NCBI RefSeq assembly: GCF_017968885.1
Contig: NZ_CP072913.1
Location: 2,898,001-2,962,000 of the forward strand
Length of the DNA stretch: 64,000 bases
Source of the DNA: Pseudomonas sp. Tri1
GTDB lineage: Bacteria > Pseudomonadota > Gammaproteobacteria > Pseudomonadales > Pseudomonadaceae
Direction of reading: 5' to 3'
Below are positions 5,004 to 6,164 of the stretch, piece by piece. Every line of letters begins with the position of its first letter. Position 1 is the stretch's first letter. Position numbers and translations under genes: made by a program. Under the pieces are notes generated by a model that saw only the letters and a program-made list of their open reading frames with translations, did no database searches and was not told the DNA's origin.

Positions 5004-5324
5004 TCAGGTGTCGGATTGATGAGCCGTCCACTGCTTCATCTCTTCAGCAATGAAGTGAGTCACCAGGTCGCTGTACATCTTCTCGATGATATCCGGGTTC
5101 AGGCCTTCGGCCTCAGCCCACTCGCGCCGTGTCCCGAGCATGGTCTTGAAACGCTCCGGGGCCTGCACCGACGTCGCCGAGGTCTTGAATTTCGAGGCCG
5201 CCTGCACGTAGCCAAGGCGCTTGCCCAACAGCTTGATAATGGCCTGGTCGAGGGCATCGACTTCGCGCCGGATGTCCTCCATGCCTGCGCATTCCGAGGG
5301 TTGTAACGGAGGGGGGGCTTGCAT
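5004..5324 (-). CDS. pchB: PchB-like isochorismate pyruvate lyase / AroQ chorismate mutase
   Basis: A 106-residue all-helical AroQ-class protein. The sequence (DIRREVDALDQAIIKLL, RLGYVQAASKFK, APERFKTML, FIAEEMKQW) follows PchB of the pyochelin pathway closely, including a lysine in the mobile loop and the ending IAE-MK-W. PchB converts isochorismate to salicylate plus pyruvate and has weak chorismate mutase activity. The start at 5324 is preceded by AAGGAGTGACCTAC, a good ribosome site; a longer open frame to 5411 lacks one. No isochorismate synthase (PchA) is present in the window. It lies 58 bases downstream of the cysteine hydrolase gene and is probably cotranscribed. Lyase versus mutase as the main activity cannot be settled from sequence. 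Confidence 0.8.
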   Translation of the reverse strand: MQAPPPLQPSECAGMEDIRREVDALDQAIIKLLGKRLGYVQAASKFKTSATSVQAPERFKTMLGTRREWAEAEGLNPDIIEKMYSDLVTHFIAEEMKQWTAHQSDT

Positions 5325-5382: not shown

Positions 5383-5901
5383 TTAAAAGTACCACTCTTG
5401 AGCGTAGACAACTCGGCAGAAGGGGCCTGCCAGGGTTGTGTTGTGATGGGCGACGATCAGGTCCGCCTTCAAGTCAGAAGTGTCGGCGCAAGTATGGCCG
5501 TCGGCGATCAACACGGCATCAAAGCCCAGGTCCCGGGCCGCGCGGCAGGTGCTGTCGACACAATACTGGGTCTTCATTCCAGTGATAACCACCCCTTCGG
5601 CGCCACAGGCCTTCAATCGATTGGCCAGGTCTGTCATGGCAAAAGCATTGGGCCGACTTTTTTCGAAGATGACCTCGGCGCCTTCCAACAACAGCTCTGG
5701 CACCAGTTGCGTCAAAGGACTTCCCGGCTCGATGGGCGAGCCGGGTGGGCCGACGTGGCGCGCCAGGAAAATCGGTGCGCCGGCTTTGCGAGCCTTGATC
5801 AACAGGCCATTTAGCGTGTTGAGCAGCGCTTCGCCGGCCCAGGGTTTTTCCGGGCCATGAAACAGCCCAACCTGCATATCGAGAATCAACAGAGCATGCA
5901 T
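5383..5901 (-). CDS. Isochorismatase-family cysteine hydrolase
   Basis: A 172-residue protein of the isochorismatase-like cysteine hydrolase superfamily. The expected Asp-Lys-Cys triad is D8 (LLILDMQ), K81 (FEKSRPNAF) and C114 (MKTQYCVDSTCR). A nucleophilic cysteine points to an amidase- or nicotinamidase-type hydrolase rather than to isochorismatases that lack this residue. The start at 5901 is chosen because AAGGAAAGC lies just upstream and the domain begins immediately. It is the first gene behind the leader peptide and attenuator at 5936-6063, and the PchB-like gene follows. The substrate is unknown. Confidence 0.85.
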   Translation of the reverse strand: MHALLILDMQVGLFHGPEKPWAGEALLNTLNGLLIKARKAGAPIFLARHVGPPGSPIEPGSPLTQLVPELLLEGAEVIFEKSRPNAFAMTDLANRLKACGAEGVVITGMKTQYCVDSTCRAARDLGFDAVLIADGHTCADTSDLKADLIVAHHNTTLAGPFCRVVYAQEWYF

Positions 5902-5935
5902 CGTGCTTTCCTTGCGTTTGAGCCAGTGACACAAG

Positions 5936-5974
5936 GGCAAAAGAAAAGGCCCTTACCATCACTGGCGGGCCTTT
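5936..5974 (-). terminator. Intrinsic terminator (attenuator arm 3:4) before the cysteine hydrolase gene
   Basis: On the minus strand AAAGGCCC, a 14-base loop and GGGCCTTT form a perfect eight-pair stem, followed directly by TTTTCTTTT. It lies between the short leader ORF (5995-6063) and the ATG at 5901, so transcription must pass it to reach the two genes. The strand with the T run is the strand of those genes. Confidence 0.8.
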
Positions 5975-5994
5975 GGGATACGTGTGTTATTGGC

Positions 5995-6063
5995 TCACGA
6001 CACCTCACGACCCGCCTTGGCGGTCGTGGTCGTGGTGGTCGAGGCAATCTGTGACAGGTTCAT
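5995..6063 (-). CDS. Threonine-rich leader peptide (22 codons) of an attenuator
   Basis: A short ORF opening ATG AAC CTG and ending TGA. Codons 9-14 are ACC ACC ACG ACC ACG ACC, six threonines in a row. The same codons enter a stem (arms 6006-6016 and 6019-6028), as in classical amino-acid attenuators. The other two frames have either an in-frame TGA or no usable start. There is no clear Shine-Dalgarno sequence; a TTGCCA and TTAGTG pair spaced 17 bases lies just upstream, and if used would give an almost leaderless transcript. The peptide is presumably only a ribosome-position sensor. Confidence 0.7.
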   Translation of the reverse strand: MNLSQIASTTTTTTAKAGREVS

Positions 6064-6164
6064 GGTGCCGACACTAACGTCCGGCCGTCAGGTTTGGCAA
6101 GTGGGTATGTCAGCTTGCTTGCGAAAGCGGTGCGTCAGTTTGCGCAGATGTTGGTTCTGCCGCC

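Follow-up and report, generated by a model that had tools for sequence, protein, structure and literature searches.

A short element on the minus strand of Pseudomonas sp. Tri1 is most probably a ribosome-mediated transcription attenuator that senses the charging of threonine tRNA (Thr-tRNA) and has a single gene, that of a cysteine hydrolase, as its target (probability about 0.85). It lies in a stretch of 64,000 nucleotides, here called the window (contig NZ_CP072913.1, positions 2,898,001 to 2,962,000). Textbooks present leader-peptide attenuation as a means of controlling amino-acid synthesis. In the present case it accompanies a single hydrolase gene, both in many Pseudomonas and in relatives from Pantoea, Duffyella, Burkholderia and Paraburkholderia, and a re-coded sister stands before an acetyltransferase. 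Very probably the attenuator is real and the hydrolase its target, a classical mechanism joined to an unexpected gene. The reading draws on the anatomy of the element, its conservation, its restriction to one hydrolase lineage and the counts of conserved pairing.

The minus-strand leader open reading frame (ORF, 6063-5995) has 22 codons, encodes MNLSQIASTTTTTTAKAGREVS and lies upstream of the isochorismatase-fold cysteine hydrolase gene (Table 1; letters checked). The initial annotation had described this ORF with its six threonine codons, accompanied by hairpins and a terminator with a T tract before the hydrolase. The letters agree with that description, as does the folding: RNA 6075-5920 reaches -61.4 kcal/mol, whereas its shuffles average -47.6 (sd 4.0), giving a z of -3.4, and 0/200 shuffles are equally stable. 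The hairpin placed over the threonine codons stood in part. Helix 1:2 (strand 1 with strand 2), helix 2:3 (strand 2 with strand 3) and the terminator share bases and are thus overlapping hairpins, but the window's own hairpin 1:2 prefers a shifted register on folding, the aligned register having a probability of 0.02. The T tract and the hydrolase ATG (5901-5899) are 37 nt apart.

Table 1. Features of the leader element, its downstream genes and its sister class; positions are those of the window unless loci are named.
Feature	Position	Strand	Basis or remark
-35-like box TTGCCA	6095..6100	-	predicted; TTG(C/A)CA kept about 36 nt 5' of leader ATG in 71 leaders
-10-like box TAGTGT	6071..6076	-	predicted; 7 nt 5' of leader ATG; alignment of 71 upstream regions
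Leader ORF MNLSQIASTTTTTTAKAGREVS and stop	5995..6063	-	homologous Thr-rich ORF in 160/165 distinct loci
Six consecutive Thr codons	6022..6039	-	letters checked in window
Strand 1 ACGACCGCC	6019..6027	-	alignment of leaders, letters
Strand 2 GGCGGGTCGT, partner of strand 1 or strand 3	6007..6016	-	alignment, folding model, letters
Strand 3 GGCCCGCC, antiterminator partner of strand 2	5964..5971	-	alignment, folding model, letters
Terminator hairpin AAAGGCCC (5974-5967) / GGGCCTTT (5952-5945)	5945..5974	-	folding, alignment; termination predicted
T tract TTTTCTTTT	5939..5947	-	letters; overlaps terminator 3' arm
TCACTGGC, complementary to terminator loop GCCAGTGA (5966-5959)	5922..5929	-	pairing count, letters
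Shine-Dalgarno AAGGA of hydrolase	5909..5913	-	picked out by eye
Isochorismatase-fold cysteine hydrolase, 172 aa, conserved target	5383..5901	-	PF00857 113.5 bits (cut-off 27); fold model mean pLDDT 86
PchB-like gene	5004..5324	-	NF005475 144.2 bits (cut-off 126); neighbour in 12/163 loci
Met-rich leader before GNAT acetyltransferase	L237-L254, L268, L270, L272, L274-L276, L219, L221

An Rfam scan of the window returned no family above its cut-off. At a lax threshold the element is weakly overlapped by Thr_leader (RF00506), at 19.8 bits against a gathering cut-off of 55. The enterobacterial thr operon leader that this family describes resembles our element in its Thr-run leader peptide, its two-partner hairpins and its terminator before the gene; it differs in controlling threonine synthesis genes, according to passages of PMC3766115, where the window has a lone hydrolase. 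The open literature, with most subscription papers outside its scope, yielded no paper on this leader, and the word isochorismatase is absent from the main text, as far as it was covered, of PMC2965389 and PMC3766115.

Conservation was assessed from both ends of the locus. Among 298 genomes of the genus, BLASTN with the leader matched in 84, and a protein search with the hydrolase matched in 172, paralogues counted; among the matches listed, identities to the hydrolase fall either at 51% or more or at 41% or less. The locus set combined the leader matches, orthologue places without a leader match (paired by eye with loci already collected) and 80 named loci identified solely through the protein search. 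Removed before counting were L001 (the same place as L002), L053, L064, L084 and L086 (no hydrolase) and L201 (50 nt upstream), and a further 35 of the remaining 200 loci, whose last 150 nt upstream were identical to those of a kept locus; 165 distinct loci were left. A leader was scored when an ORF of 8-50 codons within 300 nt upstream held at least four threonines in seven residues.

By this measure a Thr-rich leader ORF precedes the hydrolase at 160 of the 165 loci, nearly all of them from Pseudomonas (116/120 in the genus sample, 44/45 in the named set). Of the five exceptions, L054 has a broken hydrolase copy, L093 keeps the terminator without the Thr run and L095 has a degraded leader; upstream of the hydrolase at L100 and L186 we found no trace of a leader. 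The Thr run exceeds what chance would give: taking every ATG ORF of 10-50 aa from either strand of 80 loci (L127-L206), 84/12,918 have at least five threonines per seven residues, or about one per locus with the leaders themselves counted in. Leader-like sequences without a hydrolase downstream occur at L053, L256, L267 and L273 and are perhaps orphan or relic leaders, and at L064 (G099:C1:2433447-2433487) the terminator stem recurs ahead of a likely transposase gene, with neither leader ORF nor hydrolase.

For structural comparison, the search pattern missed two terminators (L065, L090), which left 158 leaders, 154 of them distinct and 71 non-redundant at a 90% identity cut. In all 71 an alanine codon follows the Thr run in frame and the codon just before it encodes threonine; the next one upstream does so in 67/71. 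Variation within the run is greatest at third codon positions (0.238, against 0.146 at first and 0.128 at second positions).

The surroundings of the hydrolase are less constant. Its neighbours are not conserved, the commonest other family appearing at 22 of the 80 loci with longer flanks, and no partner gene is common to most of these loci; the gene picker behind this count is crude, capturing the hydrolase's own cluster at 65/80. Some genomes are multi-copy, G220 for example having three hydrolase copies. Four hydrolase loci of P. frederiksbergensis assembly 36C6 are among those listed (L137, L138, L146, L174).

The leader is specific to this hydrolase lineage. Wider searches over 258 and 279 genomes supplied 25 loci for inspection (L294-L318), in which both orthologues (84% identity, at a locus already in the main set, and 68%) have the leader, and none of the 23 paralogue loci (34-46% identity, the paralogue of the window's own genome included) has a Thr-rich one. 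In a plasmid collection 54 records matched the hydrolase. Of six orthologues inspected there, five (two Pantoea, Duffyella, Burkholderia cenocepacia and Paraburkholderia) have a Thr-run leader and a terminator-like stem, and the Aeromonas caviae record has no leader; the Burkholderia (3.2 Mb) and Aeromonas (4.9 Mb) records may be chromosomes. Because of these Thr-run leaders in Pantoea, Duffyella, Burkholderia and Paraburkholderia, the association of leader and hydrolase extends to Enterobacterales and Burkholderiales.

Across the 71 leaders, hairpin 1:2 is paired in 89.4% of cells. Its paired percentage and covariation score are matched in 0/500 shuffles, as is the number of pairs or cells changed on both sides, and its pair types in 15/500. 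The terminator is paired in 91.5% of cells despite two registers, and its covariation score exceeds that of all 500 shuffles; its double-change pairs are matched by 294/500 and its pair types by 494/500. Antiterminator 2:3 is paired in 85.6% of cells and lacks covariation in this set, with pairing and covariation below those of nearly all shuffles. All of these shuffle controls leave the relatedness among leader sequences in place. The predicted antiterminator is backed by conservation and position. Strand 2 has an extra G that is bulged in 1:2 and paired in 2:3, which is what one would expect if the strand has two alternative partners.

A further complementarity lies in the terminator loop, GCCAGYRA, which matches TYRCTGGC between the T tract and the hydrolase Shine-Dalgarno sequence in the window and related leaders. 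The best contiguous pairing averages 6.66 of 9 over the 71 leaders, against 4.15 with the downstream part shuffled (50 shuffles, maximum 4.58) and 5.98 (maximum 6.31) with the loops of other leaders swapped in. Since TYRCTGGC is transcribed later than the termination decision, it cannot steer termination.

To model the switch, each leader was folded up to strand 3, before the second arm of the terminator, with a ribosome hiding the 12 nt that start at the first base of the A-site codon. In this co-transcriptional model the antiterminator core pairs with a probability above 0.5 in all 71 leaders when the A site lies 2-4 codons ahead of the conserved alanine, in 66/71 at 5, in 60/71 at 6 and in 29/71 at 1. 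The corresponding figure is 16/71 without a ribosome and 0/71 with the ribosome at the stop codon, a zero by construction because strand 2 is then hidden. For the window's own leader the antiterminator probability is about 1.0 at 2-6 codons, 0.32 at 1 and 0.01 without a ribosome; L289 and L264 give 0.82-0.85 regardless of the stall. When the full terminator is folded to equilibrium with a stalled ribosome, the terminator wins in most leaders (mean probability 0.99 at the last threonine codon and 0.71 for a mid-run stall). The states are separated by the co-transcriptional fold that ends at strand 3. Because the complete terminator mostly wins at equilibrium even under a stall, the modelled switch depends on which helix can form first as the RNA is made.

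Upstream, the 71 aligned regions have no obvious Shine-Dalgarno sequence between the -10-like box and the leader ATG, and the predicted 5' end of the leader RNA falls on that start codon or next to it. According to passages of PMC7298713, the trpL RNA of Sinorhizobium meliloti likewise begins at the AUG of its leader ORF. That system is also a leader-peptide attenuator, though with Trp codons and a Trp synthesis gene in place of Thr codons and a hydrolase, and the AUG start in the window is a prediction. The T tract and the hydrolase start are separated by a median of 42 nt across loci, so a second promoter 3' of the terminator would have little room.

We infer promoter use, termination and the response to threonine in the cell, and propose the following course. 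RNA synthesis would begin on the leader AUG or right next to it. With Thr-tRNA plentiful, the ribosome would reach the stop codon and mask strand 2, strands 3 and 4 would pair, and RNA polymerase would terminate ahead of the hydrolase. With Thr-tRNA scarce, the ribosome would wait within the Thr run and strands 2 and 3 would pair; the terminator would then form too late and the hydrolase would be made. The claim of a threonine-type attenuator is supported by conservation and by the expected alternative pairings, of which 2:3 is conserved without covariation.

The same chassis also serves other genes. A covariance model built from the leaders was applied to those 298 genomes of the genus, to 198 from the family and to 30 selected ones. 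Besides the Thr class it retrieved a second class with Met-rich peptides, such as MTYTRRMNMMCSSMTASGGP, on the same GGCGGG and CCCCGCC chassis. Among 44 loci, 29 match one GNAT acetyltransferase, and at 28 of these (25 distinct) the chassis and a Met-rich leader lie 5' of the gene; as the RNA model served to pick these loci, 28/29 describes the picked set and need not hold for such acetyltransferases generally. Three of the 44 (L264, L265, L266) repeat the places of L255, L243 and L244. The codon two before the alanine and its strand 2 triplet are ACG/CGT in 47 of the 71 Thr leaders; in the acetyltransferase class they are ATG/CAT in 20/24 distinct leaders, ATG/CGT in two, ACG/CGT in one and ATG/TAT in one. 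A codon swap with a compensating swap in the partner strand is the pattern to be expected if a different tRNA came to be sensed. In the stall model the Met-rich class forms the antiterminator in 24/24 leaders at every position tested between 2 and 6 codons, in 14/24 without a ribosome and in 0/24 at the stop codon.

In one genome a Thr-run leader, MNIFFVTTTTTTTTTAIGGPRGGCAL, stands before an MFS transporter (PF07690, 108.9 bits; contig G079:C62, L255/L264), with a second, equal match at G079:C104; the search for a leader at this genome's hydrolase (L100) found none. A search with the chassis pattern matched in 102/298 genomes, against four matches for the reversed pattern, and about seven of the matches listed for the pattern look unrelated when judged by eye. 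The weak model matches inspected (about 25-40 bits) were likewise judged by eye to be mostly coding sequence with a terminator behind it. At L271 (G085:C63) the chassis carries an Ile-containing peptide, MHIIRSSIFAFGGA, and a different GNAT-like ORF lies 209 nt downstream. We do not claim an isoleucine version from this single case, which lacks the related acetyltransferase and may hold a decaying leader.

The hydrolase belongs to the isochorismatase-like superfamily by its PF00857 match, above cut-off. Residues D8, K81 and C114 are invariant in sets of 10 and of 26 sequences, and we take them to be the catalytic Asp-Lys-Cys of this superfamily. Five NCBIfam equivalog families match it, every one below cut-off (biuret hydrolase, RutB, YcaC, PncA and YecD-like). 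In a blind search of structure libraries many amidohydrolases tied without naming a substrate; the fold gives no substrate name because the model is about equally near to many of them.

What the hydrolase does can be suggested only tentatively. Its likeliest task would be to clear away some compound that depletes Thr-tRNA in the cell, for instance an inhibitor of threonyl-tRNA synthetase or an analogue of threonine that is toxic. With somewhat less than even confidence, we infer that poisons of tRNA charging induce the switch and that the downstream enzyme detoxifies them. The shared chassis, re-fitted with codons, might then amount to a set of stand-alone stress cassettes (Thr/hydrolase, Met-rich/GNAT and Thr/MFS), each sensing one uncharged tRNA and releasing an enzyme or pump against the poison responsible, for example an amino-acid analogue or an inhibitor of a synthetase. 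Protection is favoured over nutrition because no partner gene is common to the loci, place and copy number vary, and sister switches stand before an acetyltransferase and a transporter. If detoxification is true, the codons would label the class of toxin, a block of threonyl-tRNA charging for the hydrolase and of methionyl-tRNA charging for the acetyltransferase; the substrates of the two enzymes would become directly testable, and similar cassettes could be found from sequence alone. The Met-rich switches before the acetyltransferase hint at built-in sensors of amino-acid poisons.

Obafluorin contains an amide bond. It is a beta-lactone of P. fluorescens that inhibits threonyl-tRNA synthetase, and passages of PMC10619133 describe ObaO as a Pseudomonas determinant against this inhibitor; ObaO is a second, insensitive synthetase, unlike our hydrolase. 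No result of our analysis links the window hydrolase to obafluorin or ObaO. An isochorismatase-like hydrolase that inactivates an antibiotic is SttH, which opens streptothricin, perhaps not its native substrate; it is likened to ours by the superfamily name alone, and the relevant passages describe no attenuator (PMC11702664).

A nutritional role for the same Thr-tRNA switch, in which the hydrolase frees or saves threonine, for example from a Thr conjugate, is somewhat less probable than protection. Known Thr-run attenuators serve threonine synthesis, in the passages of PMC3766115, and the fold is near that of amidohydrolases acting on small amides and carbamoyl compounds to release them. Against this, no threonine-pathway neighbour is common to the loci, the presence of the system is patchy with several copies in some genomes, and the genes behind the sister leaders, for an acetyltransferase and a transporter, are not obvious suppliers of amino acids.

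Drugs can also stall translation directly. Chloramphenicol and linezolid stall ribosomes at Thr or Ala codons, and the erm and cat leaders are leader-peptide attenuators of antibiotic-resistance genes. A Thr run followed by alanine would suit a leader that senses such a ribosome-binding antibiotic, with the hydrolase acting on the drug, and drug-induced leader-peptide attenuators of resistance genes are a known kind (PMC5418344). We consider this improbable: the Met-rich sister class on the same chassis is more simply explained by a switch in the tRNA that is sensed. Should detoxification be the true role, the resistance leaders would be alike in tying a protective gene to translation stress through a translated leader; they differ in that a ribosome-bound drug stalls them, whereas the cognate codon run here suggests that tRNA charging is sensed.

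The initial annotation had taken the unit of control to be an operon of the hydrolase and a PchB-like gene, with a possible link to salicylate and pseudomonine-type siderophores. In the window the PchB-like gene, which passes the NF005475 cut-off, starts 58 nt beyond the hydrolase stop codon, but such a gene occurs within 800 nt downstream at only 12/163 loci, whereas the leader tracks the hydrolase (160/165). A search of the own genome with TIGR00543, which covers isochorismate synthase only, gave no match above cut-off and three weaker ones, and the absence of a partner gene common to most of the 80 loci with longer flanks also speaks against the siderophore link. Control of a PchB operon or of siderophore synthesis is rejected on this distribution, and the idea that the leader serves a PchB or salicylate pathway is largely refuted and very improbable. 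That annotation had named loci that keep both genes and lose the Thr run or the terminator as evidence that would count against its reading; the five leaderless loci include none of the 12 with a PchB-like gene.

Although short Thr-like runs do lie within coding sequence at L084 and L086, a chance low-complexity ACC/ACG run beside an unrelated terminator can be rejected, given a leader conserved over genera and found at 0/23 paralogue loci, an in-frame alanine codon in 71/71 leaders and a codon exchange compensated in the partner strand. Farther upstream on the minus strand of the window, between an epoxide hydrolase gene and the leader (6330-6160), lie GC-rich repeats, GTGGGAGCGAGCTTGCTCGCGATGG, presumably of the Pseudomonas REP type.
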